Of a stretch of 64,000 nucleotides of DNA, positions 9,400-36,147 are shown one piece after another (position 1 is the stretch's first letter; the number at the start of each line of letters is the position of its first letter). A model generated the notes under the pieces. It saw nothing but the letters and a program-made list of their open reading frames with translations. It was not told the origin of the DNA and did not search any database. Position numbers and translations under genes: made by a program. Source of the stretch: Buxus sempervirens (taxonomy: Eukaryota; Streptophyta; Magnoliopsida; Buxales; Buxaceae); the NCBI GenBank assembly GCA_947561395.2, contig OX387183.1, positions 6,381,883 through 6,445,882 on the forward strand, written 5' to 3'.

Positions 9400-10547
9400 G
9401 AGCGTTTCGTCTAAAGCGTTTCAGTGATACCATCCGTAATGCGTGAACCGGTTGTAGCCACATATAGCTTAACATAAATATTAACAAAGAGGCGTTAATG
9501 CTCGTTTATATTCATGTCCTTTGTCGTCAAACGACTCCAGCTGGCCATCATTAGTCATTTTTTGTTTTTATTTAATTTCCAAACTCTAAAACCAAAAACC
9601 CCATCCTTTGCCGCCACCTCATTTCCGCAACATACCTTCTCTCTTTCAAACTTCTTCTCTGCAATATACCTTCTTTCTTCTTCTTCTTTAACGAACAATC
9701 TCTCCAACAAACAGGGACTTGTTTTGCAGAATGATCCTAAGTTAGAGAGTGGAAGGAGATATAAATATTTGTGTCATTTATTCATCCCAATAGCAAAGAT
9801 GGCCTCAAAGTGTCAAGAATCTTACAAATTAGCAACTGATTTAGGGAAAAAAACGAAATAAAAAAAAGTTGAAAAAATTGGGAATGATTTAAACATGAAG
9901 GAGCCATTGAATGATGCTTCACACATAGAGAATATTCTTAGTGGAATCCAAAGTGCCACTCATGCTGGAAGTTCACGTATTGATAGTGTATGTTGAAATG
10001 ACTTTTTTGATGAAATGTAGGGAGTATTAAAATTTGTTCCAAAGCAAGGGGTATTAAAAAGAAGGTGAGGGGTGGTCGTGCTGGTACTAGTGTTCGACGA
10101 CTAATAAATGCTCTTAGCAAAGCCATAAAGTATAAATGTAAGAAAAGAAAAGAAAAGAATCTACAGATGACCCCATCAATCCTAGCAACCCCAGCAACAA
10201 GTGTACACAAGCTGAAGCATCCTCAATGCTGGTTGGTAGATTGCTCGTTGAAGAAGAACAAGGAGAGTTAGACAAAAGCTCTAGGTTGTTGCAAAAGAAG
10301 AAGAAGAAAAAGATGAATATTGTTGGGGGAAACGAAAGGCTTTTGTTTTTTATTTTCTAAAACTACACAAGTCTCAAAAAATTTAATAATGTCCTGAACT
10401 CTTCAGACACCATCAAAGGAAACATTAAAAAATTATTAAAACAGAAATGGGCGTTAATGCCCGCTCCCATCAAGAGATAACGTGAATTTGAAATCTGTTC
10501 GCGCATTACAGATGGTATCACTGAATCGCTTTAGACGAAATGCTCTC
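9400..10547. mobile_element. MULE-like element with FAR1-like remnant
   Basis: The left end GAGCGTTTCGTCTAAAGCG is matched by the reverse complement of the right end, GAGAGCATTTCGTCTAAAGCG. The match continues to GATACCATC and GTAATGCG, giving inverted repeats of about 45 bases. Flanks GTAAGTAAGGC and GTAAGCAAGGC form a duplication of about 9-11 bases with one mismatch. Copy A has the uninterrupted site (GTAAGCAAGGC near 3222). The interior has broken reading frames from about 9798 to 10270. Fragments such as ESYKLATDLGKK and RRLINALSKAIKYKCKKRK resemble the C-terminal part of FAR1/FRS-type MULE-derived proteins. That match is from memory of the family and is weak. Confidence 0.65.
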
Positions 10548-10719
10548 GTAAGCAAGGCGGGCTCAAAACGTTTGTGTATAAGTCAAAGTCATGTTCTACC
10601 CCTATGATTGATAGCCACCCAATCTTTCTTATATCACTTTCATTTCTATTTCATTTTCTTCATCATTTGCATTGTCCTGTACCCTTCACTTTTTCCTTCT
10701 GCATTTTGTCTTTTGTCTC

Positions 10720-11617
10720 TGTTGGGAAAATTACCTTCCTTGTGTGACAATTGAATGACAAGAAAATTTTGGTACTAATGATTTTTCTTGAAATGTTTTG
10801 TAGTAAACAAGTGAGATTAAAAGACTTGACTGTAAAAAGAAAAATCTAAATGTGTTGTATCCTAGTGCAAGATGCAGGCAGATTTAGTTGTAACCTGCTG
10901 CACCTGCACAGGTAATGAAAAAAATGACTATAAATACTCTGTTTCACACCAGATTTCAGAGCATCCGTGGGAGATATTCTTGCTGAGAATTTTGCCTGCC
11001 TAAACCTACAAGAAGGAAGGAGGGAGTTAAGGTTTCTAGGAGGATCAAGATTGATTCATCAAGATTGATTCATCAAGAATCAATCAAATTGGAATTTAGA
11101 GACAAGATATGGAGAATTTGTGAGTTTCTCTTGTTGGGTTATTGAGAGATTCTTGAGAGTTCCTCTTTGAGGGTTTTTTGAGATTTGAAGAACTCTTGGT
11201 GGATTCCAAAGAGAGGTTCAGATCTTGAAGTTTCTTTGGTGGATTCCAAAGAAGTTGAAGACTTTGGTGGATTCCAAAGCTTAGGTGTTCATGGACTTGG
11301 TGGATTCCAAGTTGAAGAGGAGTCTTGGAGGATTTCAAGATAGCTGGAGAAATCAATAAATATGAATTGATGTGTCGTGGAATCGACGAAGAGTGAGATT
11401 TATGTTTGAAGTGATTTATTGTTAAATTTAACATTCTTGTATTTCATCTTTTTATAGTGATTTGGTTTCTTAGGCTTGATCTACTTAAAAAGACCCGAGG
11501 TTTTACCTAAATAAAAGTTTAGGGTTTCCTCGTATAATTCTTCTGTTATTTTACTGTTTTGTTAATTAATTGTGATTAAGATTCATAGAAAAAGGGCCTA
11601 AGGTTTTAAAAATCTCA
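10720..11617 (+). mobile_element. LTR insertion (probably solo LTR), 898 bp
   Basis: Relative to copy A, about 900 bases are inserted. They start TGTTGGGAAAATTACC, a Copia-like LTR start, and end ATCTCA. Flanks are GTCTC and GTAGC, a poor 5-bp duplication, so the exact ends are less certain than for the other LTRs here. A TATA box (ACTATAAATA, about 10928-10937) puts it in plus orientation. No internal retrotransposon domain is present. Confidence 0.6.
11189..11325. repeat. Degenerate tandem motif TTGGTGGATTCCAA
   Basis: TTGGTGGATTCCAA(AG) occurs four times, at irregular spacing of about 30 to 50 bases, and a weaker fifth follows (TTGGAGGATTTCAAG). The core GGATTCC is palindromic. It lies in the transcribed part of the LTR at 10720-11617. 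Confidence 0.8.
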
Positions 11618-12669
11618 GTAGCCTTTTCTTTGACTTTTGTTTTTTATTGGATATTTTTTGCTTTTTGCGATGTGCCCACTTTGTCGTCTTTTTGCTTTCC
11701 TTTTGCATTGATTGGTGCCTTTTTTTTTTTTCCCACTTTCCTCCTTTTATATTCCGTTCCCAGTGGACAAGAAAAAACATGATCGATCCAGTGACAAAGG
11801 AACAAGCAAACTCAACACATTTAGCCGGGGTTTAAATCGTCTGTCGCGGTAGACCTGTAGCATCCGTGGGATGCTGCCATGTGTGGCATCCCACGGTTGT
11901 TGCACGTTTTACATTTTCACTAGTAGGGGTACACAAGTAATATTGCACGTATTGAGAGTGTTAAATTTTCTAATTAATTGTATTTCTATTTTCAAAATGG
12001 GAGCGGGGCCCTTCTTTGAGCGAGCCGCTCTTGATGAACAAGGGGACGTGACAATTTGGAAACGTAGCAGCAAGCTATTGGAACAGTAGAACTAGGTGCC
12101 CCGTAAAAGGTGCAGTGGATGTGAAGCGGTTTGGAAGCCTGTCCCATCCATTCCTTTGTTGCATAGGCGTGCAGAGATGAAGATTAAGAGCAAAGCCGGC
12201 AAGGACATCTTCCGTCAACGCAAGTCTTTCAGGACTCAAGCACCAATCTTCAAACAGGCTATCAATTCAATTAATTCAACTAATTAGTATGGTTATGATC
12301 GAATAATCGAAGTGGAGATTGATCTGATCCACGGTGGAGAATTTGAATCGGAAGGTTAACGCATCGAGCTCTTAACGATTTCAAACACAAAACGAAGGAG
12401 ACGAAAAACGATTTCACAGAGAATACCAACTAATCAATCAATAATATATAGATATATATGAATCCATCAAATCAATACATAACAGGAGATCTACTATCGG
12501 TATATCTGTAACTCTCTGTAAATCAAGAAACATATGGTTTTATTCACACGCCTACGATCTAACTACTGTAACATAAATAAAGAATTAATAAAATCTCTCT
12601 ACTGATCAGTCCGACAAAAGAGGCCATAATCCCGAACATCGATCTGCTGCAACTCTCTCATCGTCTCTC

Positions 12670-12864
12670 TTACTGCTTCAGGAAGGCAAGCAGAGAGACT
12701 GCAAGAGAAGAGCAAAGAACAGCGCCGGAGATCGGCAGAGAGAAGGCCGATCCGTTGTCCATCGACGGAGATGATGCTGGCGCCGAATCCTGAGCCGAGA
12801 CGGTGGCGACCGCAGAGAATACTGCAATGACGAAGACGAGAACAGCAATGCGGAGTGGCGCCAT
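12670..12864 (-). CDS. Arabinogalactan peptide precursor (copy B)
   Basis: This 64-codon gene encodes a protein identical to that at 5014-5208: signal peptide 1-24, APASSP glycosylation stretch, DNGSA region before a hydrophobic GPI-anchor tail. An in-frame Met exists 27 codons upstream (12945), but the Met at 12864 is the one conserved with copy A and places the signal peptide at the N-terminus. The promoter TATA box is at 13004-13013. Nucleotide differences from copy A are few and mostly outside the coding part. Unlike copy A, its upstream promoter is not interrupted directly by an element, so this copy may keep the ancestral control region. Confidence 0.87.
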   Translation of the reverse strand: MAPLRIAVLVFVIAVFSAVATVSAQDSAPASSPSMDNGSAFSLPISGAVLCSSLAVSLLAFLKQ

Positions 12865-13003
12865 TGATGAAAGATCTAGAGCAGGACGAATCGTAATGCG
12901 TGAACAGGGGAAGAAGAAGAAGAGGAATATCAGGAATCCAAACAACTCTCTGTGGATTCTTGTTTTGAACTGAAGCGATGGTTAAAGCCGTGATGGGAAG
13001 GGC

Positions 13004-13013
13004 CTATATATAG
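13004..13013 (-). promoter_or_regulatory. TATA box of AG-peptide gene copy B
   Basis: CTATATATAG lies about 140 bases upstream of the start codon, in the same context as copy A. The following GGTTTCGTGGTTCGGCGTG is also shared, so at least 60 bases of distal promoter are conserved between copies. Confidence 0.7.
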
Positions 13014-13275
13014 GGTTTCGTGGTTCGGCGTGTGGACCCCAGAAGACGCGGACAGCTGGGCTTGGGGCTGAGTCCTCCCGTTGGAGCCGTAAGTTAGACG
13101 AAAGCAAGGAAATCGTGACTAAGTGGGACACGTGGTGAGTTTGTTGGCCGACTTAGGGCGTTGTTTTTTAAATTATTTAATGGCGACGACGACGAGTTCG
13201 TTGGCCGAATATGGAAAGGCGGTTGGAAAATAGAGGGATCCAGGAGGTTGAACGCCATGACATGGTCCACACGTC

Positions 13276-15408: not shown

Positions 15409-15621
15409 TCAAAAGAACATAGAAGCATAGCAGGAGCACAAGAGCAGGGCCGAGAAAATCGCCGGGACCGGTCGAGCGAACGCGGATCCAGCCTCCATCG
15501 AAGGCGCCGGAGAAGATGCCGTCACGTCGTCCTGCGCAGACACCGTAGCAGCGGCAAAGAAGATCGCGATTACCAAAACGAGAATCATTGTAGAAGCTTT
15601 CAAGAGACTAAATCGCGCCAT
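15409..15621 (-). CDS. Arabinogalactan peptide precursor (third gene)
   Basis: This 70-codon single-exon gene has the same architecture as the duplicated pair. Residues 1-29 form a signal peptide ending TVSA before Gln30. A short mature stretch follows, with Ser-Pro and Ala-Pro (ASSPAPS). Next come a small-residue region (MEAGSA) and a hydrophobic C-terminal tail for GPI anchoring. The sequence has diverged from the copies at 5 and 12.7 kb, mainly in the tail, so it is an older paralogue. A TATA box lies 55 bases upstream. All four AG-peptide genes share strand, pointing to tandem origin. Cell-surface location is inferred from family architecture. Confidence 0.82.
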   Translation of the reverse strand: MARFSLLKASTMILVLVIAIFFAAATVSAQDDVTASSPAPSMEAGSAFARPVPAIFSALLLCSCYASMFF

Positions 15622-15675
15622 TGCCTCAAGGGATGAAAACCAGAAAGAGTAGTAATCTGGGACGTCTAGAGGTGT

Positions 15676-15699: not shown

Positions 15700-17171
15700 T
15701 CCGTACCGGGAGAAGACTCCTGACTTGACTAGAAGTCTAGAACTTCGAAAACAAAGCAACGTTTGTTTTTTTGGGTGGAGGTGGGAATGGGTCGGATCGG
15801 GTCATATTTAGACGGGGATTGGGGAATTGCCAACCCAAGTATTTTTTTATTAATTTTTATTCCTGTTTTAATTTTAATTATGTTTATATAAAACTCCATT
15901 TGATATGGTAAAATTTTAATAAATACGATTAAAAACACTTAATAAACATGATTTCTTTTAAAAAAAAAATAAAAATAGTCACATTTTATTTGTGAAGAAG
16001 TTTAAATATAACTATTTTTTTAAAAAGCAATTAAATAAAATTATAATAGTTACTTTTCGCATGGATTGCATTAAAAATATAACTTGTAATGTTTATATAA
16101 TACAACTATATACTCGTATTTCTTATATATTGGATGGTAAACAATAAAGATATGGCAATCAAAATTAATTAAATTATATTAGTCATAAGAACAATTGAAT
16201 GATTAGCTATGGGTACTTGATAATATACTAAAATATAATATAAATGGGTATGGGAGATAAAAAAAAATAAGGAAAAAATAAACTTAAAATTTAAATGGGC
16301 AACAAGTTGGGTTCAGGTTGACCAATTTCCAGACAAGTTGAGAAAACCTAAAATAAAACCCAACTCAATTAATAAACGGGTCAACCCAAATCCGTTTAAT
16401 CGATTAGGTTCTGATGGCTTGACAAGTAGAGCAATTGCCAGCTCTATATATTTTTGGGGTTAAATTAGTTCATTTTTGAGAAGAAAGTTTGAAAATTAGT
16501 TGGTCTGAACGAATAAATAAACCTTATTAATCTTCCAAGATGGCATATAAAATAAATAAAACTTTCATGCACCTAATACGATCATTGATCAAATTGACAA
16601 AATGGCAAGATTTGCTTTGGCATAAGCATAGTCAGGAAAAGATAATACACGTAATTTGTTGCGCTAGAGTGTTTATACCCAAAAGGAAAGTAGGCTTGAA
16701 CATTCAGAGCAAACGCCGGTCCAAAGGGCTTTGGCCACTGACGACAAAGCTCTCAAGGCTCTAGACTGAAATTTTTAAATCCAAATACGTAGTTTTGGGT
16801 GTGGAAAATGTAAAAATGTTCAAGAGCAGAAGTCCATGAAGACAAAATGTAAAAATGTCTTCCTCTTGGGTGTGGAAATAACTATGCAGCACCGGGGAAA
16901 CTGAGACAATTTGGAATTCTGAAAACTTGTACTTTTTTTTTTTGTTGAACTGAAAACTTGTACTTTGTGATCATTAAAATTATATATTGAGATGATTAAT
17001 GTTGTACCTAGCTATGATAATCAAAGTCTTGCATTCCTTTGTTAAGTCAAAATTTTGGATTTTATTAATTCAAAATGTTTCTGAAATTCATGTCTCATAA
17101 TACATCTTTTCTAATTTTCAAAGATACCTGCTTCCTCACATTGCCTTTATACTTTAATTGATATTGGGCAC
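15700..17171. other. Intergenic AT-rich DNA, no gene seen
   Basis: There are stretches of A and T with homopolymer runs and repeated GGGTT/AACCC strings (for example 16310-16400) typical of small non-autonomous elements. I cannot define ends or duplications, and no reading frame resembles a protein. Confidence 0.4.
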
Positions 17172-17578
17172 TAGGGGTGTCAATTGGTTCGGTGTAAACC
17201 AAAATCCAATTGAACCAAACAGATTTTTTTTTTATTTGAAAAAGTACAAATTGAATTAAAGGTTCAGTTTATGGTTTAGGTAGTGGAGAAACTGAACCAA
17301 ACCGAAAACCGAAGTATATTATTATACATGTGTAATTTTATATTACATATAATATATATACAAAAATTTCAAAACCTATTACTACACTTTGTTGTCAAAA
17401 CCTACAATTTTTCTTTGTTAATGTAATATTATAGAAATATCATTTCTATTTTATAGTAAACAATAGTGTTTACATTTGTATTCTAGTAAACAATATATGT
17501 AAGCACCTCATTTTTGCGCTCCCAGAAAAACCAAAAATGCAAACCCTGGACAGAAAGTCAAACCCTAAGGGGTGAAAA

Positions 17579-18283
17579 GTTGACTTTTTGATCATGTGAA
17601 AATTGGCCACATCGCTTTATGCCATTGGATAGAGAATCTCGACACGGTTCCAACGCAACTGAGTTTGTAGGAATCGGAGTCCGGATGAAGGTTCTGCAGG
17701 CGGTCAAACTTGAGGGGAGCCAAAAGTTGACTTTCTGCTAAAATCTGATCCATATGCTTACCCCTATACCATTGAATAGAGAATCTCGACACGGTTCCAA
17801 CGCAACTGAGTTTGCAGGAATCAGAGTCCGGATGAAGGTTCTACAAGCAGTCAAACTTGAGGGGAGCCAAAAGTTGACTTTCTGTTAAAATCCGATCCAG
17901 ATGCTTACCCCTATACCATTGGATAGAGAATCCTGACACGGTTCCAACGCAACTGAGTTTGCAGGAATCAGAGTTCGGATGAAGGTTCTGCGGGCGGTCA
18001 AACTTGAGGGGAGCCAAAAGTTAACTTTCTGCTAAAATCTGATCCAGATGCTTACCCCTATATCATTGGATAGAGAATCCCGACACGGTTCCAACGCAAC
18101 TGAGTTTGCAAGAATCGGAGTCCGGATGAGGGTTCTACGGGCGGTCAAACTTGAACGGAGCTAAAAATTGACTTTCTGCTAAAATCCGATCCAGAGGCAT
18201 ACCCCTAGGTCATGGGATAGAGGGCTCCGATACAATTTTAACGCAACTGAGTTTGCCCAGATCGGAGTTCGGATGGAGAAAAT
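17579..18283. repeat. 147-bp tandem repeats, about 4.8 units
   Basis: Units begin with GTTGACTTT (or a variant) at 17579, 17726, 17873, 18020 and 18167, an exact 147-base period. Each contains GACACGGTTCCAACGCAAC and GGAGTCCGGATGA. The same phrase occurs once or twice in the related LTR of the inner element (about 19795) and, inverted, near 61730. So the unit is an LTR module amplified in this copy. Confidence 0.9.
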
Positions 18284-18616
18284 ATGAGCTAACAAAGTTT
18301 TCGAGCAGCAAAACTAGCAAACTACACACGTGGCAAAAAGCTGCACACGTGGCGAGTTGCGTAGGAAAATATCTCGGGGATCAAATCCGTAAATATCCAA
18401 ATGTACGAAATATCCCAGGAACTAAATCTGTAAAAATCCCGGATTATCGGATTAAACCAAAAATAACCAGGGACTAAATCTGAAAAAGTCAGATTTTCCG
18501 ACCGGCGAGCGGCCGCATTAAATGTTTTGTCATCATATTGCCGCTCGCGCGGACGTGGCAAGCGGGTATGCGCTAAGCTTGCGCTCAAGCTGAGCGGATA
18601 CCCCTTTTTCCTCGTC

Positions 18617-18623
18617 TATATAA
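18617..18623 (+). promoter_or_regulatory. LTR TATA box (level 2 LTR)
   Basis: TATATAA in CGTCTATATAAGTCACGCG. It lies about 1.1 kb into the LTR and is the likely retrotransposon promoter; pyrimidine-rich sequence follows. Confidence 0.55.
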
Positions 18624-20223
18624 GTCACGCGAGACTCCTTTGAAAAGGGTTGGAAGCTTTTAGGTTGAAAAGGTTTTTGGTTAAAAAGTTTAAGGTTGGC
18701 TCATTTCAGGTGGGGATTTTTGGGTTGCTCTCTGTGGGGTTTTGAGTTGTCACCAGCTCACTTCCTTCTCCTTCTCCTTCTTCTTCCTTCAACCCTTCTC
18801 CTTCTTCTTCCTTCAACCGAAGTCCCCCTCTCTTCATCCTTGCTTGCCTCCGAAAACCTCCAAACCATCTCCTCCTTCATTCTCATCTATTTCCAATAAA
18901 GAGGTTGAAAGCTGGTTGCTGTTGGAGGTGCAAGAGAGGGGAGCTCCAGTGCTCGTGCCACCTCAAGGAGAAGCCGCCGCCTTGCACAAAAGCGTAGGAA
19001 CCTCAGGTATTGCTTCTCACTCGTTTACATAAATAAAAATGGGAGTCATATAAGCATGTTATCGATACTGTTTTTTTTTCTTTACTTGTCACGCATTTTT
19101 TTGCTCCTCCATTTCGGGTGACATGGAGGTCTCCAAGGGTAAGGGAGACCCATGCACGACCCCTTTAAGAAGGTGAGGGCTTATTGCTCCACCGAGCGCT
19201 CATGAGGTACCTGGCACCCCTACGAAGAATCGGCCCCTCATTCATCTCATCCAATGTTTCCCTGTAAACCCCCTCCTCCTTCCCTTCTTCGGATGTTAGC
19301 ATGCCTGCTCGAAGGTCCAGTCGTGTGGATGAAAGTGCATGTAATGCCTGCATGTTGTTGTTTTTTTTATTTTATGTTGCTGGACTTGCTAACATACTCC
19401 CCCAACCCCCTGCCACCCGCTGATTGCTCCTTGTGCCGCGGTAAGCATGCTCCCATCACCCCATTACCAGATGTCTGTAGCTGCTTGATAACAGTAGGGT
19501 TTGTTTTTTTTTTTCCGTAAAGGAGATTTGGAGTTGTGTACTAAAGTAGCTTAGATTAAGCTTCAAAACATGTTTGAGTGTCTTCTAGAGTCTGGTAGAA
19601 GCATGGTATTAGCACCTGAGAGGTGTTACAGAGACTGGAAATCAAGCCAGTTGTAGACACCTGATTTTTGCACCCCAAATGAATGCAGAAAATAAAAATT
19701 TCAATTAAAAAGTCAAACCCTGAGGGGGCCAAAATTTGACTTTTGATCCAAAGAAAATTGGCCATCAAACTTCCTCTCATTAAAAAGAGCATTTCGACAC
19801 GGTTCTAACGCAACCAAGTATGCCAGAATCGGAGTCCGGATGAAGAAGTTATGAGCCGGTCAAACTTTTGGGGGAGCGAAAGTTGACTTTTTGCTCGACC
19901 CCAATTCAACTGCCCAATTTGATCCCAGTGGATAGTGTGTTCCGAGCCGATTCCAACGATACCAAATTTGCTAAAATCGGACATCAGACGGAAAAGTTAT
20001 GGGCAGTTGAAGTTTCAAGAAAGCTGCCCATGTGGCAAAACAGCAGCAAAAAGCAGAATAGATGAATTAAATAAATAAAAAAAATCATATCTTTATTTTT
20101 TAATAATATTTTAATAAAAGAATCTCGTTTTATAATATAATAATCAAAAAATCGAATAAAAATCTTTAAATAAATCAAATTTAATAAAGCATTTGAAATC
20201 CAACATTTTAAAAACGTGCTGGA

Positions 20224-20380
20224 CCGTATTTGAAGTACGGGCGAGGCATGCCCGTATTTCAAATACGGGTAAGCTTCTAGAAGGGGACGCGTGTCGCTGT
20301 ACGGCGGGACACGCGTCCCATACGGCCGATTTTGCGAGATTTGAAAATGTGTGTTTTTTGCCCGTACTTGAAGTACGGGC
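20224..20380. repeat. Three related palindromes upstream of LTR TATA box
   Basis: The palindromes are CCGTATTTGAAGTACGG (20224-20240, imperfect), CCCGTATTTCAAATACGGG (20251-20269) and CCCGTACTTGAAGTACGGG (20361-20379). The last ends 15 bases before the TATA box. A further ACGCGTGTCGC / GGGACACGCGTCC inverted pair lies between them (about 20287-20316). Confidence 0.9.
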
Positions 20381-20394
20381 ACGAAAATTTTGCC

Positions 20395-20401
20395 TATAAA
20401 T
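20395..20401 (+). promoter_or_regulatory. LTR TATA box (level 3 element)
   Basis: TATAAAT in GCCTATAAATAGAGAGG is a strong consensus. It is the likely start of genomic retrotransposon RNA. Confidence 0.7.
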
Positions 20402-21223
20402 AGAGAGGCCACCCCCCTCATTTGAACAAGCTGGTCCCCCATATGCCCCCACTCTCTGGTTTTGCCTTCTCCCACGTCCGAAACCCTGTCCAAATACACT
20501 CTCATCCCCAAGCTTAATTTTATCCCCAAAATACCCCCATCATACTTAAACCATGCCTAATCCCTTTCTTTTAGCCTTCATTCAATTCCATCTCAACAAA
20601 CCTCTTTCAAAATCATCCTAGGAAAACTCGGAGGACGCGGAAGCGCTGCCGAAATCACCCGGAGAATCAACACTAGTCAGAAACAAGAAGGTAATAGTAA
20701 AGGAGTATTTCTGGTAATGTAATATCCAACATATTTTAAACTTGACTTTATTCTCGAATTCCCTTTGTTTGCTATTTGTTTTATTATGTATCTCTCACTT
20801 GTTTGCTCTTATTAAGCATGGCATTGAGTCTCCCATGGTGAAGGTACCCAACTAAAAGGCGAAATGAGAACTCTATTGAGGATTTAACAAAGAAGCAGTT
20901 ATTTAAAATAACATATCCTTAATTCTTGTAAAATGATATGCCTAATGTACAAATCATCCTCTCCTCAAGTTCATCTTCCCATGGTTCTCCTTCAAAGGAA
21001 GGCCACATGAAGATTAAAAGAAGGAAAAGGTGAAGAGTGGAAGAAGAAGATGATCAAGAAAAGGGCATTAAAGTTGCTGTGAAGACACTGTGAATCACCA
21101 CCGAAGTCACCATAGCACCCCAGAAGACCTACCGGAGTGATCTCAATCGAAGTCGGAGCAAAACGGCGAAGTTTAACAAAAACCGTATACTCAGAGCAGT
21201 CCAGGCGTGCCTGTAGTTAACCT

Positions 21224-21270
21224 ACGGTCTGGCCTGAACCGTATTAAAATTGCGGTTCAGCCCAGACCGT
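21224..21270. repeat. 18-bp-arm inverted repeat in LTR
   Basis: ACGGTCTGGCCTGAACCG (21224-21241) and CGGTTCAGCCCAGACCGT (21253-21270) pair with one mismatch around an 11-base loop. Related ACCGTA/TACGGT words flank it. Confidence 0.85.
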
Positions 21271-22110
21271 AATTGACATACGGTCATACCTGTAAATATC
21301 TTAAAAATCTATTTCTTTGACCTGGTTGGGCCTAATCCGACCCATTGTTGTATAATCTGAACCAATGGGGTTTCTTGGACTTTTCCAAGCCCATTTTGAG
21401 ACTGTGGGCTTAAGCGGGCCCACCAAGGCTTCGTGGGCCCTCCAATGGGGCCCACATCCCGTCTGGCCCAACCAAGGCCCATTTCAACAAATGGGCTAAA
21501 GGCCACTTGGTTAATTGTCCTTGGGCCAAATCCAAGGTTAATTGTCCTTGGGCCAAATCCAAGCCCAATGGGCCCTAAAAAACTTCAACCCACTAACTGT
21601 GTAAATATTCAATAAACCTTCAAATCAAACAGCCAAAATCCAACAAGGGTTACCCAATAACCTAAATTGGGCCATGGGCATGACTTAAGCCCAACTTGGA
21701 TTCCTCTGGGCCTTCCAACAGGGCCCATATCAGACCCACTTCACTAATTGATAAAAAGATAAAATCAAATAAAGAAGGGACCCACACCATCAATGGTCCC
21801 CACTCAGACTAAATAAATGTGCATGCTGGTCTAGGAAGGGTGAGAACTAAGTTGACTCAAGACCAAAGAGACCCACGGGACCTGTCAATTGACGGGGCGG
21901 GCTAGGGTGTCTTCGGGCTTCCCTAGACGTAACCGAGAACTTACTCAGAACTCTAATAAAGCCGCAGACCAGAATAATTAGGCCCGGATAGGTGCCCCTT
22001 TTGTATCTGCCTGCACCTCTCAGGCAGTGGCTACTCCAAACCAGTCCCGAGGCGAGCATCACATCAGCATGCACCTCGTCGTGCGGCCCGAAATCGGGGT
22101 GCGCACAGCT

Positions 22111-22128
22111 TGGCGACTCCACTGGGGA
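22111..22128 (+). promoter_or_regulatory. Retrotransposon primer-binding site
   Basis: TGGCGACTCCACTGGGGA starts 3 bases after the LTR. The TGG start pairs with the CCA end of a tRNA. Ogre-type elements are known to use a tRNA-Arg primer and this sequence looks like theirs, but I did not compare it with a tRNA set. Confidence 0.7.
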
Positions 22129-24033
22129 TCTCTCAGCCCAATTGGACCTTGGTCAGGAAATGAGTCAACATAGGGGGATATGAGCAGATTTAGGAAGTAC
22201 TTTTTGTCCAACCTTAGTGAGGTATGGAACTCTTACAATTACGTGATATTGGGGGATCCTGTCACAAGGACGAGATAATTGCCTAAGGAAAGTGGAATTT
22301 AAGCGGTTCCCTGTGACCCTCCACTTACCTGGGGATCCACCCAGACATCATATTGCATGTTGTTCTGTCCTCTCACTATAAAAGTAACATTAAGGAACCT
22401 TTTATCAGCTCATTATCCGAGAATCACCCAAATAGACAAAGCACTTTGCCCCATTGCACACGAGCACTTCACCACACCGTGAATGATCTTTTAACTGCAT
22501 GGGGTGACATGCACGAGGGGGTCTGCATGAATGATCCGCTTTGAATGATTTGATGAAATGCTGCTCTTCTCCACCAAAACCTAGATCTTTCTAGCAGCCA
22601 CCCTTCTCAAACGATGAACTTACTTTTGGGATGGTATTAGCTCTACGCTCCCGTGGCTTGCCGGGGAAAGTAGGGTAAACCCATCTCCCCAGGTTTCTGG
22701 ATTCCTTAGCGCCACTGGCTTCATGCTGTGGTACGCGAGGGTCTAGTACTTGGCTCAGACCCTTGTAGGCAAATGTCTCGGGCTGGGTATCCTTTCCCCA
22801 CCTACTGTTTCTGATAAACCACAGCTTTGTGAATACAGCATGGATATGGATGTGGATGTGAATATCGGGAAATAAAATCAATTTAAAATCCAAGAGTCCA
22901 TCCGGGGCAGTGCCCCCGCTCTTTTGCATAAAATTGAGTGAACCCTAGATCTTGGGCTGCCTCAGCCCTAATTTAGGAAACCAACCAAATTTTGATCAGG
23001 GGAACCACCCCAGATCCATGCATTAAGTCCTGTGAACCATGGGCTTTGACCCATTGAGTCCGCAGGGAGCACTCTGAGTCCAGGTCGACCTTTTGAGCAG
23101 ATGAAAGCCGATAAGATCAGAAAATCCGGCAGAAATAGGCCAGATCAGAACAGGGGCATAAAACCCTAGATCCAGGATTCCAGCCTACCTGACTTGAAGC
23201 AAATTTGTATCCTTCTTCTGGGTTCCCAAAAGCCCTTAAGATGAAATTTTTCATATTTTGAATATCATGTAATTTTAGCCCTTTTCCGCAAATTATTAAG
23301 TCTTTTGGTCTGACACCTGAAAGCAAAGACAGACGAAAGAACAGACAAAAGAAGGCTGATCTGGACTCAGATGTGCTTCCATGTCTAGAAGTCGTGCCTC
23401 GAGGGGCACCAACCTTTTTAGGACTATGCATACACTTTTTAATTATGCAGAATGGTAATGTTGGTTTTAATTTTGTGTACGCATCTTCATGCATCAAATG
23501 CACACACTTCAAGATCATCTGCATAAGCATGCCTGATTAACTCATTTCAAAAAAGAAAAAAAAGAAAAAAAACCAAAACAAAACACCAAAACAAAAAAAA
23601 ACCAAAAAATAAAAAAATTTTTTAAAAATTTGAATTGCCTCTAAGTGTACATTAAATTTTCCTTAGGGCGAAAAATGGTTTCAATCCCCTGTGCTTAAAC
23701 CAAGTTTCAATTGGCTATGAAACAGCCCAAAATAAGGAAGTGAAAAAAAAAAGTCAAGGAAAAAGTCTGATTTTTGCCGATGGCCATCGGACCAAAAAAA
23801 AAGTGAAAAAAAAGAGAAAAAAAATCTTTAAAAAAAAAGAGAATCAGCCAATTGGCAAATCAACTCTTGTAGTTTCCCAGATCCTGATGGAAATCAATAC
23901 TTTGTGTTCCTACCATCCCAAATCCCTTATCATTCCTTGGAATTCTCCAAACTAATCCTTTGGAAATCAACGCTTCGCATTTCCAAAATCAAAATTGGCT
24001 CCTGTGGTTTCCAAACCCAGAGATTATTTCCTT
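22129..24033. other. Non-coding leader of level-3 element
   Basis: There are no reading frames of note. It contains an A-rich stretch (23545-23620) and another (23740-23840). Ogre elements often carry an extra ORF before gag; I see none intact here. Confidence 0.5.
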
Positions 24034-24615
24034 ACCTCCGAAGTGGCGGTCAACCTCCGAAGTGGCGGTTGAGGGAAATCATTCTTAGAAATCTTCTTTC
24101 CTTACCTCCGAAGTGGCGATCAACCTCCGAAGTGACGGTTGAAGGAAATCATTTTCAGAAATATTCTTTCCTTACCTCCGAAGTGGCGGTTGAAGGAAAC
24201 ACTACAAAAATGAAGAGAATTAGCGGCACCTTTTAGCGGCGGTAACCTAATTCCCGCCTCTAAAGGCACTATTACCGGCGGTAAAAGCACTTTCCGCCCC
24301 TAAAAATTCTTTTACCATTTTTTTCGCGCGGAAATTTTATGGCGCGCATTTTTTTAGCGCGAAATAGCCTTTAGCGGCGGTAAGTACCGCCGCTATAGTA
24401 CATTTTACCGGCGGAAACATATCTACCGCCGGTAACAAGTTGGCGGGAAGGTCCCGCCTAAAAAGCCTTATTACCGGCGGTAGCAGTCCGCCGGTAATAA
24501 CACTTTTAGCGGCGGTAAGCTCATTACCGCCCCGAAAAGCCATATATTAGCGGCGGTATATGCCTTGCCGCCCCTAAAATGGACTTTTAGCGGCGGTAAG
24601 CCCATTACCGCCCCT

Positions 24616-25305
24616 AAAAGCGAGTTTTCAGAGGCGGTACTGTCTTTACCGCCCCAGAAGAGACCTTTTAGCGGCGGTAATCTCTTTACCGCCCCTAAAA
24701 GTCCATTTTAGGGGCTCTAAATCGATTACCGTCGTAAAAAAATTTGTTTGGGGTGAAATAATGTGCAAGTTTTACCGGCGGTTTCTAGAACCGCCGGTAA
24801 AACCATGTTTTCACGTGATTTACCGGCGGTTAAACCGCCGGTAAAGGGCTTTTTTCATTTTTTTTGAAAAGCTCGATTGCTACTGTGTTGGACCTTTAGA
24901 GGCGGTATCTAGCGCCGCTAAAACTACATTTTTAGGGGCGGTAAGTCAAGTACCGCCCCTAAAAGCCGGTTTTCAGAGGCGGTAATATCTTTACCGCCCC
25001 AGAAGAGACGTTTTAGCAGCGGTAATCTCTTTACCGCCCCTAAAAGTCCATTTTAGGGGCTCTAAATCGACTACCGTCGTAAAAAAATTTGTCTGGGGTG
25101 AAATAATGTGCAAGGTTTACCGGCGGTTTCGAGAACCGCCGGTAAAACCATGTTTTCACGTGATTTACCGGCGGTTAAACCGCCGGTAAAGGGATTTTTT
25201 CATTTTTTTTGAAAAGCTCGACTGCTACTGTGTTGGACCTTTAGAGGCGGTATCTAGCGCCGCTAAAACTACATTTTAAGGGGCGGTAAGTCAAGTACCG
25301 CCCCT
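24616..25305. repeat. 345-bp tandem duplication inside the CACTA element
   Basis: Two copies, starting about 24616 and 24961, can be aligned throughout. Matching landmarks are TTTTCAGAGGCGGTA at 24625 and 24970, CACGTGATTTACCGGCGG, and GCTACTGTGTTGGACC. Only scattered substitutions separate them. Confidence 0.88.
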
Positions 25306-25649
25306 AAAAATGTAGTTTTAGCGGCGGTAAACGTATTACCGCCGCTAAAAGACATTTATTAAAAAACCATAAATTATTTTTAGCGGCGGTAAGCAAGTTA
25401 CCGCCGCTAAAAGACCATTTCTAATTATACAAGCGGGACTTTTCCCCGCGTTTCAATTTTGAATGTACATTTAGGGGCGGTAATTACCGCCGCTAAAAGT
25501 TTAAGCGCGATTTTCAAATTCAATTCAGCTCGTGGGCGCGGAAAATGTAAGGTTTAGCGGCGGTAATCTATGTGCCGCCGCTAAAACTCGACTCTATAAA
25601 AATCCGCCGAATCTCTTCTTTTCTTCAAGGTATGTTTTCTTTCTCTTCA

Positions 25650-25935
25650 ACTTCTCTCTCTCTCTTTATCTCTCTCTCTCTCTCTATCTCTATCTCTATC
25701 TCTCTTTCTCTCCCTCTCCATCTCTCTCTCTCTCTCCCTCTCTACTTCTTTCTCTCTCTCTCTCTCTCTCTTTGTCTCCCTCTCTACTTCTCTCTCTCTC
25801 TCTACTTCTCTCTCTCTCTGTCTCCCTCTCTACTTCTCTCTCTCTACTTCTCTCTCTCTCTCTCCATCTCTCTCTCTCTATCTCTCTTTCTCTCCCTCTC
25901 CATCTCTCTCTCTCTCTATCTCTCTCTCTCCCCTC
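25650..25935. repeat. CT-rich microsatellite (about 285 bp)
   Basis: Interrupted (CT)n, with CTCTA, CCCTCT and ACTT variants. Open frames across it would give only Leu/Ser repeats and are not genes. Confidence 0.92.
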
Positions 25936-27156
25936 TCGGTTATGCTGCTGAAGGACAGCAGCAAATTTTTTTTATTTTTTAATATGATTTTTAGCGGCGG
26001 TATTTCCCGCCGCTAAAAACATGATCTAATTTTTTTTATTTTTTAAAATGAGTTTTAGCGGCGGAAAATACCGCCGCTAAAAGCCGGAAATACCGCCGGT
26101 AATGAGTGATAACAATAGCGGCGGTAATCGACCGCCGGTAATGAATGGGCAATAGCGGCGGGAACGTACCGCCGGTAATGAGTGATACCAATAGAGGCGG
26201 TAATCTACCGCCGGTAATGAATGGGCAATAGCGGCGGGAACGGTACCGCCGCTAATGAGTGAGCAATAGCGGCGGTAAGTTTTTTACCGCCGCTAAAAGC
26301 TTTAGTGACGGCATCTTTTACGGCAAGACCAGTTACCGCCGGAAATGTTTTTAGCGGCGGTAATTGTTGTTTTAGCGGCGGTATCTTACCGCCGCTAAAA
26401 GTGTCCTTTTTTGTAGTGAAACCATTACCTCCGAAGTGGCGGTTCAGCAGAGATTATTTCCTTACCTCCGAAGTGGCGGTCAACCTCCGAAGTGGCGGTT
26501 GAGGGAAATCAGTCTCAGAAATCCTCTTTCCTTACCTCCGAAGTGGCGGTTGAGGGAAATCAGTCTCAGAAATCCTCTTTCCTTACCTCCGAAGTGGTGG
26601 TCAACCTCCGAAGTGGCGGTTGAGGGAAATCATTTTCAGAAATCTTCTTTCCTTACCTCCGAAGTGGCGGTCAACCTCCGAAGTGGCGGTTGAGGGAAAT
26701 CATTCTCAGAAATCCTCTTTCCTTACCTCCGAAGTGGCAGTTGAGGGAAATCATTTTCAAAAATCTTCTTTCCTTACCTCCGAAGTGGCGGTCAACCTCC
26801 GAAGTGGCGGTTGAGGGAAATCATTCTCAGAAATCTTCTTTCCTTACCTTCGAAGTGGCGGTCAACCTCCGAAGTTGCGGTTGAAGGAAACATTTTCCAA
26901 GGATTATTTCCTTACCTCCGAAGTGGCGGTCAACCTCCGAAGTGGCGGTGAAAAGGAGATTATTCTCAGGGACTCTCCCCTTGTCTCCGAATGGAGGCTA
27001 AAAAGAAATCAAATTATCCTCCATGGTTGTTGAATAAAAGTTTCAAGACAAAAAAAAAAATCAATTAAGTGGAAAACAATCAAATCAAAAAGCCATGAAT
27101 AATCTGCATTGGCATGCATTATGTTTTCATGTAATATGAATTCTCTATACTAATTT

Positions 27157-27980
27157 GTGTCTTTTTGTTCAACAGGTACCAAGATTGCGTATCGCAGCCC
27201 GTACCTCCTACGTTCAAGAAGAAAACTCCAAATGGATCCTGCTGAAGGACTTGAACAAGCACTCCCTCCACCTCCTAAGGAGCAAGAAAAGCTGGAAGAC
27301 CATCCAGTGATCACAGGAATTAACCAGCAAATGGCTCACATGACGGCCATGATGGCAAACATGATGCAAAGAATGGAAAGGCTGCAAGCACCACCGCAGC
27401 ACTTGGCTCCTCAACCTTTACCAGTCATGCCAGAGCAGCCACCGCCTGCTATTCCACAGATGAACTTGCAACCACCAGAACAGCCAGTTCCTCAACCACT
27501 ACCTGTCCAAGCAGAGCAACAGCTGAGAATTCCAGCAGCCCCTGCCATGCCACAGGAAATGGGGCATGAAATAGAAGATTGGTATCGGGCACAAGAATCG
27601 ATGCAGGCCGATTTGCAGGCTCTAAAGGAAATAGTGCATAAAGCAGATCGAGGTCCTATACCAAAAGAAGCCTCACTGGACAGATTAGGGTTCTTTCCTG
27701 ATTTGCAACTTCCACCAAAGTTTAAATGTCGAGATCTCGTAAAATTTGATGGAAGTGGTGATCCGCTGTTACATCTCAGAGCGTACTATGGAGACATGTG
27801 CCAGTATGCGCATGATGAGAGGATCATGATCCAATTCTTCCAACGCTCACTGACAGGATCAGCACAGAAATGGTTCGCCAGTCTAGACAGGAGTCGAATC
27901 AGGACTTGGAATGATCTGGCAAGTACTTTCCTTGAGCACTTCAAGTTTAATACTGAGGTCTTGCCCACTCGAATGGAGCT
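27157..27980 (+). pseudogene. Ogre/Tat-type gag, truncated
   Basis: An open frame of about 275 codons encodes the capsid-type gag of a Gypsy element. After a Pro/Gln-rich stretch (about residues 85-140) comes the conserved gag region. Its landmarks are KFDGSGDPLLHLRAYYGDM (about 198-216), the FFQRSLTGSAQKWF block, and RTWNDLASTFLEHFKFN. This arrangement is typical of the Tat/Ogre lineage. The likely start is either 27157 or the Met at about 27235. The frame continues a further 12 codons into LTR sequence after 27980. Nucleocapsid, protease, reverse transcriptase, RNase H and integrase are absent, so no particle-forming or copying function remains. Confidence 0.82.
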
Positions 27981-28133
27981 AATAAAGCCGCAGACCAGAA
28001 TAATTAGGCCCGGATAGGTGCCCCTTTTGTGTCTGCCTGCACCTCTCAGGCAGTGGTGACTCCAAACCAGTCTCGAGGCGAGCATCACATCAGCATGCAC
28101 CTCGTCGTGCGGCCCGAAATCGCGGTGCGCACA
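27979..28133 (+). repeat. Truncated 3' LTR (155 bp) of the level-3 element
   Basis: It matches 21953-22107, the end of the 5' LTR, with very few differences (for example GTGTCTGCC for GTATCTGCC, GGTGACTCC for GGCTACTCC). It is joined directly to gag at the shared sequence CTAATAAAGCCGCAGACC. Confidence 0.9.
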
Positions 28134-29882
28134 CCAGTCTCTAAGAAAAAAAAACAGAGCATTAGGGGTGTCCGTCGAGCTCGCGCCCACCTCGTGTGCG
28201 GATGCCCCTTTTGTTGGTTTTCGGTCCGCCCAGCCTGCGCCAACCTCATTCCTTGGTACGGGGAGGGACCCCGCCCCCCATGTCCCTCCCCTTGGACCCA
28301 ACATAATGAGCCAGTTTCTCCTTGATAAGTGTCAACTTTGTATATTTTCTGTGATTACTGCTGGATGTGGGTGTCATTTTCGAACCGAACCAAATAAACC
28401 AACAAGGTCTCCGGGTCACCCGGAAACCCAACTTGGGACATGGCCCATCGGTCCAATTTTGTACATTAGTGGGCCTTCCAACGGGGCCCACCAAGCCCAA
28501 TAAACACAATGAAATGTATGCATGCAACTTAATCAAAATAAGTAAAATTAACTGATTAAACCGGGCGGGCCAAACCTAATGCGGTCCACCCGAACTTATT
28601 AGTAAATTGATGTATGAAATGTGTGGTTTGGCCAAGACTAAGGGCAAGGGCCTATCGGGCCCGCCAAAGCCCACGAACCAACCAAGTAAGAGTTCACAAC
28701 CCTAACTTCACATAACCTGGGCTTTCAAGCCCTAATCAGGACTACGGGCCCCAAGCCCAATGTCCCACCCATTTTTGGAAACTTAAGTAAGATAAATCCA
28801 ATAAATTACCTGGCCACCATGTGCGGCCCACCCAATGGGACCACAAACCGAACCAGCCCACTTTGCATGTAAATCACTTAATAATCCAACTTGAACTCTA
28901 AAACAAAATCAACTCATTGAACCAAAAATCCAAAGGGCCTCTCAGGCTTAGACTAAGGCCTACAAGGGTACATGGGCTTGACCAAAGCCCGCCAAGGACA
29001 CCGTGGGCCTTCCAACGGGGCCCACCCAACCAGACTCAAATTACCTAATTAATCAAGATAAAAGCAATTAAAGGGACCCATACCACTCAGGTGGTCTCGC
29101 CAGACTTAACCAAACTGCCTATCGGATTAGGAATCGGGTGAAACCCAAGTAAGTTGACTCAAACTAGGATAAACCTAAGGGACCCGTCACTCGACGAGGT
29201 GGACCGGGGTGTCTACGGACTTGCCCGGACCACAACCGAAACCCTACTTAGAATCTCAAAAGCCGCAGACCCAAGCCTTAATAGACAAGATTAGGCACCC
29301 AGGTGTCCGCCTGCACCCCATCAGGCGGTGGCGACTCCGAATTTCCCGTGCCGCGTTTCCGACACGCGCACAATATAGTTTAAACTTAAAAAATGTTGTA
29401 ATTTCATATTTTCGGTTCAGTTTACGATTTAATCACTTTATTTTAGTTTGGTTTTTGGTTTATAAATTCCAATTGAAATTCAGTTCGGTTCGATTTTTAG
29501 TTTTCATCAATATGATTCGGTTTGGTTTATGTTTGGCATAAAAACCAAACCAAACCAACCGAATTACACCCCTATTGGGCACTTATAGCTAAAAGCTTCA
29601 GCTGATAGGTGAAGGCACAACTATGTATATAAGAGGTCCAAATAAAAAATCAAAGCAAACTGGATATCAATCAATTAAACAATAAATATGAATATAAATG
29701 AGCAGTAAGTAATCCTCTGTATGATCTGATACCCAATACCTAAACAATCAAATGGATCTCAAGATTCTCAGTGAATCCCTTAAAACACCAAAAAGTCCCA
29801 ACCACATCTCTCACAACTCAAAAATCATACCAAAACATCTTTGCTCACTATAAAAATGGAAATATGAAAAAAAACTCAAAAA

Positions 29883-30101
29883 TTACTGCCTCATCATGAT
29901 AGCAAAGAAGTATAGCAGAAGAAGAGAAGAGCCAAGAATGGTGCCGGAGATCGGTGGGTTGAATGTTGATCCGGCCCCCATAGACGGCACTGGCGAAGTT
30001 GCTGTTACATCATCCTGCACAGACATGGTGGCAGCCGCAGAGAAGATCGCAAGGATCAAAAAGAACATGATAGAAGCCTTCAAGATACGACATTGCGCCA
30101 T
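29883..30101 (-). CDS. Arabinogalactan peptide precursor (fourth gene)
   Basis: This 72-codon gene is most like the third AG-peptide gene (shared KAS.M, AIF.AAAT.S, QDDVTA.SP.PSM.AGS). Residues 1-28 are a signal peptide before Gln29. The mature stretch has only Ser-Pro and Val-Pro (TSPVPS), which gives few glycosylation sites. A GAGS region is followed by a hydrophobic GPI-type tail (about 50-72). The frame is open for 23 codons upstream, but the Met at 30101 matches the start of its paralogues (MAxxxxLKAS). It lies on the same strand as the other three. About 14 kb of nested elements separates it from the third gene. Expression cannot be judged; a weak TATA-like TTATATCT lies at about 30191-30198. 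Confidence 0.78.
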   Translation of the reverse strand: MAQCRILKASIMFFLILAIFSAAATMSVQDDVTATSPVPSMGAGSTFNPPISGTILGSSLLLLYFFAIMMRQ

Positions 30102-30299
30102 TGCCTGAAGTGAAGGAAGACCAGAAATCAGGAATAACAGAAAGAACTCATTGCTTTGTACCTTCGACATCTAGAGGTTGGTGGAAGTGTCTAGATATAA
30201 GCATTCAAATACATTTACGTTATTTCTCTTTTCGGATTCACAATATACGTTTTTTCTTGAATTCTAATATGGAAATACTATAAAGTATAGAGAAGGCAA

Positions 30300-31940: not shown

Positions 31941-32421
31941 TAAGTGCTTGCGCTCTGAAGGCGCTCTAGAGCATAGGTGACTTTTGAAATTGACGCTCTC
32001 GTGCTCTTGCTTTTGCTTCTACTCTTCGCCTTTGCAACTAAGGATTTAAGTGGCTTATCCTAATTAAAGTATAATCCTATTGGTGGAAGGATATACAAAT
32101 TATGAATTCTAGCTGTGACTAGATTAAATATAAATAAGAAGCTCATATCTCATTTGTTTGATTCATTTGGTTAAGAACTAATAAGAACAAAACTAAATCA
32201 GAAACTATTCCATTTTTTCCCTTTTTCTCTTTCTTTAATAAGGGAGGCTTAGATGTGGGTGCTTGACTTCTACAATTCGTATAATGTTTTATATCAATTT
32301 TTAATTGACATTATATGCTTATATCTGTTGGTTGTTTTTTGTGTGTAATGGAATGAATTTGCATAATGTTTGATTGACAAGGGTTTGTCCTACTTATAAA
32401 CCCATTTTATTTATATGTTTT
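30300..32421. other. AT-rich intergenic DNA with (AT)n and hAT-like end
   Basis: No gene is seen. A GATAGGGATGACAATGGGGC string at about 31325 resembles the left end of a hAT-like element; I could not find its partner. A pure (AT)n tract lies at 31902-31937. Confidence 0.45.
31902..31937. repeat. (AT)n microsatellite
   Basis: Eighteen uninterrupted AT units, possibly polymorphic. Confidence 0.95.
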
Positions 32422-32785
32422 TGTTATGGAATTGAATAACAACAAAAAACAAAACAGAAAACAAAGTAAACAAGAGACACGATTTACGTGGTTCAGCAAG
32501 GATGCCTATTTCCAAGGGTTTCTCAACATGACAACCAGAAATCCTAACTTTTGGGTTTTATACAAGAGACACCCAAGTTAGAAAAATACCCATCATATGG
32601 GACTCGACCCACGAAAGCTAGGGCTAAGTGTACAGTATGGCCCATATCTAAACATTGACTAATTCAAGTCAGATACACAACAAATCTCCACCTTGACTTG
32701 AATTATGTCAATCTCCCGCACACCCTTCTTTCCTGCATTGTCTCCTTGAGAATGCAGCTCCACACCCATTATAGGTATTGTCTCC

Positions 32786-33328
32786 TCAATGTCTGAGCAA
32801 GTTGATTAAGTCCAAGCAATACTTGAACTTCTCTGTTGTTAGGACCTTGGTTAACATGTCCACAACATTGTCCTTTGTATTCACCTTACAAAGATGAATT
32901 TCCCTTTCTGAGATATATTCTCTGATTTTATGGTATCTCACTGCAATGTGTTTAGTTCTTGCATGATAAACTTGGTTCTTTGCTAGGTGAATAACACTCT
33001 GGGTATCACATCCAATCCATACATTTCCTTGATTCATGCCAAGTTCATTAACAAGTCCTTTCAACCTTATAGCTTCCATTGCTGCTTCTAAAGCAGCCAT
33101 GTATTCAGCCTCTGTTGTTGATAAAGCAACCACCCCTTGAAGTACGGACCTCCAACTAATTGCCCCTCCTATGAGAGTGAAAACATATCCTATAGATGAC
33201 TTCCCTTTATCCAGATCTCCTGCAAAGTCAGAATCTACATAACCAGCCGCATGATTTGAAGATTCACTTTTCTCAAATAGAATACCAAGGTTCTTAGTTC
33301 CATTCAAATATCTAAAAATCCATTTCAC
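32786..33328 (-). pseudogene. Copia RNase H, 180 codons
   Basis: The RNase H domain keeps its acidic residues in context: YVDSDFAGD, SWRSVLQGVVALSTTEAEYMA and the downstream CDTQSVIHLAKN. VRYHKIRE and TKDNVVDMLTK form the typical C-terminal end of Copia Pol. A stop separates it from the connection fragment at 33335-33556. Confidence 0.9.
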
Positions 33329-33716
33329 TACATTCTAATGTTCTTTCCCTGGATGTGACATATATCTGTTAACCATGCTCACTGCATGAGCTATGTCAGG
33401 TCTTGTACATTTCATGGCATGCATCAAACTGCCCACTACACTGGCATAAGGAACATGAGACATCTTAGTTTTCTCTTCTTCAGTAGAAGGATACAATCCT
33501 ACACTCAACCTAAAATGTGCAACAAGGGGTGTGCAAACAAGTTTTGCTTTGTTCATATTAAATCTTTCTAAAACCTTATCTACTCAATTTCCTTGTGAAA
33601 GCCACAAACTCCCTTGTTTCCTGTCTCTGTGGATTTCCATGCTAAGTATTTTTCTAGCATGTCCTAAATCCTTCATGTCAAATTCATTTCCCAACATGGA
33701 TTTCAACATATTAATA

Positions 33717-34385
33717 TCAGACATTCTTCACAACAATTAACATGTCATCCACATACAGCAACAAATATATATAGGAGCCATCATGAAGAACTTTAAAATA
33801 AACACAATAGTCATACTCACATCTTGTGTAGCCGTTCTTCGTCATAAGCGAATCAAATCGTTTGTTCCATTGTCTTGGAGACTGTTTCAGACCATAGAGA
33901 GACCTCTTCAACTTACAAACTTGGTTCTCCTTCCCTGGTTCTTTGAATCCTTCAAGTTGCTGCATGTATATCTGCTCTTCCAACTCTCCATGAAGAAAAG
34001 TTGTCTTCACATCAAGTTGTACCAATTCAAGATTGAACTGGGCTACCATGGCTAACATAACTCTTATTGAAGTATGTTTCACAACTGGTGCAAAGGTCTC
34101 ATTGAAGTCAATCCCTTCCTTTTGTGCGTAACCTTTTGCCACCAAACTTGCCTTATACCATTCAAGTTCACCTTTAACTGTAGCTTCTTTCTTTCTGTAT
34201 ATCCATTTGCAACCAATTGCCTTCTTTCCTTTGGGTAGTTCCATCAACTCCCAAGTTTTGTTCATGTGTAGGGACTCTATCTCCTCATTCATAGCAGTCA
34301 TCCATTTATCATTATCTTCGGAATTCATGGCTTCCTGAAATGAACATGGATATCCAGGTGTAGTAATGAGAGCAAAAGAAACCAT
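33717..34385 (-). pseudogene. Copia reverse transcriptase, 222 codons
   Basis: It contains the Copia RT core: WELMELPKGKKAIGCKWIY, FAPVVKHTSIR, QLDVKTTFLHGELEEQIYM, LYGLKQSPRQW and the catalytic LLLYVDDMLIV (YVDD). In LDVKTTFL the usual Ala is Thr. A stop follows soon after YVDD, and the remaining RT/connection part is only partly readable (33335-33556). Confidence 0.9.
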
Positions 34386-34664
34386 ATCATCAAAGCCATA
34401 CCTGACAGGTGCCTTCTTTTCCCTTATTTGTCTATCCCTTACAATGATGTAAGTCTCTTATTCACTAGATGACTCTCCTTGAGGCATATCACAATGCTGT
34501 TCATGCTCAACTGTATCATCTAGCTCCACCTCAATATGAAGTGTACCCTTTTCTTGATGGCTATCTGGTTGCGCTACTTCATCATTCTGCTTTCTATGTT
34601 TCAGCAAGTGTGCTTCATCAAAGACCACATCTCTACTAGTGAACACCTTCTTAGATTCAGGATC

Positions 34665-35771
34665 CTATAGCTTGTATCCCTTTACACCTTTCTCAAACCC
34701 AATAAAGATGCATTTCTTTGATTTAGGATCAAGTTTGCGCCTCTTTGTGCTTTGAATGTGGGCATATGCTGGACATCCAAAAATCTTCAGCATAGAATAA
34801 TCTGCTGGTTTTCCTGTCCATACCTCCTCTGGGGTCTTGAAACCAATAGTTGTAGAGGGTGACCTATTAATTATGTAGCAAGCCATGTTGACAGCTTCAG
34901 CCCAAAATGACTTATCAAGACCAGCAAATCATCTCATGCTTCGAGCCCTCTCCAAGAGTGTTCTGTTCATTCTTTCTGGCACTCTATTTTGCTGCGGAGT
35001 CCCCTTATTTGTAAAATGCCTGATAATTCCTTTATTCTGGCAGTAATCCATGAATTTTGTATGGCTATATTCTGCTCCATTGTCTAATCTGATACATTTC
35101 AGCTGTTTGCCTATTTACTTTTCAACTTCTGCCTTCCATCTCTTGAAGATCCTGAATACTTCAAATTTATGCTTCATAAATTAAACCCAGACCTTCCTAG
35201 AATAGTCATCAACAAAGGATACAAAGTATTCTGACTTTCCTTTTGATGGTACTAGTGAAGGCCCCTATACATCTGTATGAATATAATCCAACACTTCCTT
35301 GCTTCTATGAGTTCCAGTATTGAATTTAACCCTACATTGTCTCCCATACAAGCAATATTTATAGAAACTGATCTTGCAATTTTTAACACCTTTCAACAGT
35401 TTCCTTTTATGAAGTTCCATCATACCCCTTTCACTCATGTGCCCTAATCTCATATGCCAGAGATCACTGTCATCATTAATATCATCTAAGGTTGTAACTG
35501 CAGCTCCACCTACAACTATATTCCCTAGCAGTTTGTAGAGGTTTCCAACCTTATGACCCTTCATGACTATCATGGCACCCTTGGATACTTTAAGAACTCT
35601 ACCTTCTGTTGTATATTTGCATCCATTAGAATCCAATACTCCTAGAGAGATTAGATTTTTGGTTAAGTTAGGAACATGTCGTACATCTCTAAGAGTTTGA
35701 ACTGAACCATCAAACATCTTAATTTTGATTGTTCCTATTCCAATGGTACATGAAGCATTGTTTCCCATCAA
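34665..35771 (-). pseudogene. Copia protease tail and integrase, broken by stops
   Basis: The upstream part (35265-35771) has protease-like VRHVPNLTKNLISLGVLD, then the GAG-pre-integrase region (LWHMRLGHMSERGM). The zinc-binding HHCC pattern is degraded: the first Cys of the CXXC pair reads as part of FYKYCLYGRQC. Further down, separated by stops, are IRLDNGAEY and GTPQQN, then a readable stretch (34665-34886) with NRSPSTTIGFKTPEEVW and the C-terminal KLDPKSKKCIFIGF motif. At least four in-frame stops make integrase non-functional. Confidence 0.82.
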
Positions 35772-36140: not shown

Positions 36141-36147
36141 AAGGCCT

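Follow-up and report, generated by a model that had tools for sequence, protein, structure and literature searches.

Four nested mobile elements with readable target-site duplications in a 64-kb window of the Buxus sempervirens genome

Structure of the nest

We analyzed a 64,000-nucleotide stretch of the Buxus sempervirens genome (GenBank assembly GCA_947561395.2, contig OX387183.1, positions 6,381,883 to 6,445,882 of the forward strand; hereafter, the window, to which all coordinates refer), in which four mobile elements, each enclosed by the next-outer one, form a nest extending from 17164 to 29582. On the outside is a non-autonomous element of hAT type, resembling a miniature inverted-repeat transposable element (MITE; 17172..29574, unstranded), the arms of which (17172-17497 and 29378-29574) flank a probable solo long terminal repeat (LTR) with TG...CA ends (17498..29372, + strand). 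This LTR is interrupted by an internally deleted Ty3-gypsy retroelement of apparent Tat/Ogre type (19652..28133, + strand), which in turn contains an apparently non-autonomous CACTA element (24200..26418, unstranded). From the outside inward, the target-site duplications (TSDs) are the unstranded 8-mer TTGGGCAC (17164..17171 on the 5' side and 29575..29582 on the 3' side), ATATA (17493-17497 and 29373-29377), CCAGT (19647-19651 and 28134-28138), and AAA (24197-24199 and 26419-26421). All four border pairs and their duplications are present in the sequence, bearing out a four-level nest with 8-, 5-, 5-, and 3-bp duplications as reported in a preliminary description of this DNA. Subtracting from each layer its insert and one copy of the insert's duplication gives net lengths of 523 bp for the hAT element (without one ATATA), 3,388 bp for the outer LTR (without one CCAGT), and 6,260 bp for the inner retroelement (without the CACTA element and one AAA); the CACTA element itself measures 2,219 bp.

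The four duplications differ in how much they contribute to defining the borders. For random word pairs drawn from positions 12000-35000 of the window, self-pairs included, the probability of a match was 1.0e-4 at 8 bp, 1.5e-3 and 1.6e-3 for the two 5-bp words, and 1.9e-2 at 3 bp; within the AT-rich hAT arms, the probability for 5-mers was 5.8e-3. On the + strand of the window, TTGGGCAC occurs only twice, both times at the hAT borders. When the 3' border was slid up to 300 bp in each direction, additional duplication matches numbered 0 for the hAT element, 1 for the outer LTR, 3 for the inner retroelement, and 13 for the CACTA element. Because the borders are fixed independently, by inverted ends or by TG/CA termini, strong evidence comes from the 8-bp repeat and from CCAGT, good evidence from ATATA, and weak evidence from AAA; given its 13 alternative offsets, AAA says little alone, and the CACTA borders rest mainly on 11-bp inverted termini, CACTACAAAAA. 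Repeats commonly cause mis-joins and our reading was made from the assembly alone, so we considered whether part of the nest might be a mis-join of repeats. Such an artifact would have had to place TSD lengths appropriate to each class exactly at structurally defined borders, in a window containing no N, and we judge it extremely improbable.

Containment fixes the order of insertion: the hAT element came first, followed by the outer LTR element, the inner retroelement, and finally the CACTA element. The preliminary description held that the sequence alone orders these four insertions and one LTR-LTR recombination; this holds for the insertions but not for the recombination, which could predate or postdate the inner insertions, because the inner element sits in LTR sequence and would survive a crossover falling on the appropriate side of it. 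The same account, correct in its four insertions, overlooked a fifth event, a deletion within the inner retroelement, the order of which relative to the CACTA insertion is not fixed by the sequence.

The hAT-type element and the outer LTR

Non-autonomous hAT elements and MITEs are characterized by 8-bp TSDs, short inverted ends, and small size. The outermost element resembles them in its 8-bp duplication, its short inverted ends (terminal inverted repeats of 9 bp, TAGGGGTGT), its small size, and its lack of evident coding capacity, and it differs in that a comparison with shuffled sequences, described below, did not demonstrate long inverted repeats.

Each arm of the outer LTR is colinear with a different end of the 5' LTR of the inner element. 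Positions 57-242 of the first arm aligned by BLAST with positions 58-244 of the inner 5' LTR at 77% identity, and positions 838-1208 of the last arm aligned with positions 2022-2389 of its 2,456 at 70%. The terminal ten bases at the LTR starts are also alike (TGTAAGCACC in the outer LTR and TGTAGACACC in the inner), and both LTRs end in GCGCACA. From these alignments, the two LTR families appear to be related yet distinct. Tandem repeats of 147 bp, present in 4.0 copies, occupy ~17622-18207 of the outer LTR. None of the three open stretches scanned that touch its arms (112, 120, and 147 aa, the latter two extending beyond an arm border) matched Pfam.

With arms colinear with opposite LTR ends and no Pfam match in the three stretches scanned, the segment is read as a single LTR and not as two LTRs with an internal part, and the comparison with the inner LTR supports its identification as a solo LTR. 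The ATATA duplication on both sides fits recombination within a single element. We also weighed whether this layer might instead be chimeric, combining two elements, or a non-autonomous retroelement of small size. In favor of that possibility, the comparison included no full-length sister, the BLAST alignments leave out ~56 bp at the start of the outer LTR and ~30-70 bp at its end, and the arms contain, at 29329, the word TGGCGACTC and, at 28143, a run of purines, both of which we take to belong to the LTR. The colinearity of both arms with one LTR, the intact ATATA on either side, and the three arm stretches free of Pfam matches all argue against it, and we regard it as highly unlikely.

The inner retroelement and its deletion

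The inner retroelement begins with a complete 5' LTR of 2,456 bp (19652..22107, + strand; ends TGTAGACACC...GGTGCGCACA). A putative primer-binding site, identified by sequence, lies 3 bp past this LTR (22111..22128, + strand) and begins TGGCGACTCC, its initial TGG starting at 22111. A long leader carrying a minisatellite of 51/70 bp then leads to gag (27232..27978, + strand), which matches Retrotrans_gag (PF03732, E=2e-5). In a search with gag, 18 of 2128 candidates qualified as relatives (E<=0.001); their alignments cover 25-88% of the query at 32-47% identity. The gag frame is interrupted within the Retrotrans_gag domain: it is cut at 27978 and directly adjoins, from 27979, a remnant of the 3' LTR consisting of its last 155 bp (27979..28133, + strand), of which 150/155 are identical to 21953-22107. 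Seven of the 18 relatives were aligned with it, and 5 of these continue beyond the cut point. Missing from the inner element are the remainder of the polyprotein region, the polypurine tract that would be expected and, supposing that the 3' LTR once matched the 5' LTR in length, ~94% of the 3' LTR. Leucine is common in the gag relatives at the position of the window's next codon, CTA, and the LTR segment likewise begins with CTA; a microhomology of 1-3 bp at the junction is possible on this comparison.

Two complete LTRs are the normal product of reverse transcription, with a polypurine tract expected before the 3' LTR. For this reason we infer that the deletion most likely followed integration and arose by illegitimate recombination. 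An element that belonged to a non-autonomous family and moved already deleted would also account for an intact 5' end, 3' end, and TSD, and sister copies that might exclude it were not among the sequences compared; yet only 155 of ~2,456 bp remain of a 3' LTR that should have been complete, and the polypurine tract expected before it is missing. We consider transposition in the deleted state very doubtful, and deletion in place the better account.

Comparing the divergence of the two LTRs, proposed in the preliminary description as a means of dating, proved uninformative when carried out, as only 155 bp are comparable. These contain 5 differences (Kimura two-parameter distance 0.033; 95% interval of the proportion 0.011-0.074), which over the sampling interval correspond to ~0.4-5.3 million years at rates of 7e-9 and 1.3e-8 substitutions per site and year. 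With so few sites and so wide a spread, we rejected LTR divergence as a useful age.

The class assignments made earlier hold in broad terms but do not establish membership in Ogre, because this copy lacks pol, where the diagnostic domain resides. PMC6317226, a survey of plant LTR elements, assigns Ogre and Retand to the Tat lineage, which has an archaeal-type RNase H between RH and INT. The inner element resembles that lineage in the apparent relatedness of its gag domain, its long LTRs, its large non-coding leader, its 5-bp TSD, and the TGG start of a putative primer-binding site near the LTR end; it differs in lacking pol, and no extra open reading frame (ORF) was found upstream of gag. The longest leader ORFs were 134 aa (+ strand, entering the CACTA element) and 139 aa (- strand), and neither stretch matched Pfam. 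The same source states that most, not all, OTA elements carry extra ORFs, for which the criterion was 250 codons or more. One gag relative was named, a Hibiscus retrotransposon gag domain protein, and no search assigned a lineage. Based on these features, "Tat/Ogre-type" seems a fair description. Among viral contigs, one stretch fits the gag pattern but encodes no relative, and the LTR/primer-site pattern had 0 matches.

The CACTA element

The CACTA element lies in the minisatellite-bearing leader of the inner retroelement. Wholly internal ORFs of 80 aa or more consisted of CT-repeat only, and none of the three open stretches scanned matched Pfam (0 of 3). Since no transposase genes were found, we class the element as non-autonomous. 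Eight octamers of one GC-rich kind occur 60 times in its body and once elsewhere in the window. They are palindromic, lie in both orientations throughout the body, and owe some of their copies to an internal duplication of 345 bp. A search of the window for a CACTA palindrome pattern with a 6-base spacer gave 0 exact matches. A long CT-rich run lies near 25650-25930.

Elements of the CACTA (En/Spm) family have CACTA ends, a 3-bp TSD, and short motifs repeated near their ends. The present element resembles non-autonomous members in its ends, its 3-bp TSD, and its repeated short motifs, and differs in that the motifs span the whole 2.2-kb body rather than merely the regions near the ends. One might imagine that the octamers are transposase-binding sites amplified into an array, which titrates or parasitizes the transposase of an autonomous partner, rather than the element being a simple deletion derivative; we hold this to be a long shot. 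A literature search on palindromic motifs in CACTA elements found nothing, and neither did one on Ogre; searches with two words from the sequence gave no paper about these elements among the 10 listed of 164 and of 36 hits.

Proposed history of the nest

We propose with high confidence that the nest is an ordinary one for plant transposons and arose through independent insertions. A hAT element mobilized by transposase would have inserted ~300 bp from a small host ORF, and a Tat/Ogre-type LTR retrotransposon would then have integrated into it, later being reduced to a solo LTR when its own LTRs recombined homologously. Before or after this reduction, a second retrotransposon, related to the first but distinct, may have entered that LTR, and a CACTA element would have followed into the second retrotransposon's minisatellite-bearing leader. 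The second retrotransposon probably lost everything between the middle of gag and the last part of its 3' LTR through illegitimate recombination after integration. The mechanisms in this outline and the post-integration timing of the deletion draw on established knowledge of these families, whereas the borders, duplications, and containment, the colinear outer arms, and the junction of gag with the 3' LTR can be read directly from the window. PMC7251063 and PMC4290129 describe how unequal recombination produces solo LTRs and how illegitimate recombination truncates elements.

Several observations pull in the opposite direction. At the CACTA element, AAA is a common word. The minisatellite provided no clean empty-site control: the joined CACTA flanks fall 20 bp short of one complete unit, and the score was slightly higher with both AAA copies retained than with one (70 and 72 vs 67 and 69). 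In the hAT arms, the longer inverted similarity was not significant, 8 of 300 shuffles reaching it, and the arms score higher in direct (35.0) than in inverted (32.5) orientation. The TGGCGACTC word and purine run in the outer LTR arms, already mentioned, belong with these points.

Our reading is drawn from this one locus, and the nest is of an everyday kind for plant genomes. The preliminary description called a mixed-class nest with all duplications intact rare; we found no support for this, which is not to say that measurement has shown it false. PMC4290129 reports 30,199 reconstructed nested insertions on wheat chromosome 3B, lying in up to 8 layers, and PMC6317226 gives 5-bp TSDs for 93.4% of surveyed plant LTR elements. 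In the literature on nests, our search found no figure for how often mixed nests keep all their TSDs intact. Like the nested clusters described in PMC4290129 and PMC6911290, the nest has elements of different classes inside one another that are still traceable. It differs from them in no principle, with four layers here against up to 8 in wheat 3B (PMC4290129); its second retroelement sits in an LTR, said in PMC6911290 to be a less common target for nested insertions than the 3' UTR.

The locus is a clean worked example: the order of insertion is readable, and a single nest would represent the two known ways in which retrotransposons are removed, by reduction to a solo LTR and by illegitimate deletion. 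By itself it answers no open question, and to use it as a relative clock one would first have to find sister copies and empty alleles.

Other features of the window

The nest is placed between two small related ORFs, 29883-30170 (- strand) and 15418-15646 (- strand), which are 74% identical over 231 bp of DNA; it lies ~300 bp past the stop of the former. The small ORFs presumably resemble secreted arabinogalactan-type peptides, and the 29883-30170 ORF had no match in Pfam. Beyond it lies a Ty1-copia element (32384-37207, - strand) with similar ends, LTR-like repeats occurring near 32421-32682 and 36776-37116. A search with its protein gave 7168 relatives at E<=0.001; the best 120 of these are from plants except for two rows labelled bacteria (P0040 and P0119), and none is near-identical.

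On the other side of the nest, a segmental duplication survives in pieces that are 86-93% identical (2922-5448 and 9093-13103), and a near-perfect MITE-like palindrome of 139 bp, 88% self-complementary, lies at 7590-7728. Broken open frames occur at 59471-63802 (+ strand), which we take to resemble a LINE-type reverse transcriptase; within them, 61896-62270 matched RVT_1 at 29.2 bits, just below the curated cut-off of 29.6. An exon at 48405-48758 (+ strand) encodes a SAD/SRA domain (PF02182, E=2.7e-8), presumably as in SUVH-type histone methyltransferases.

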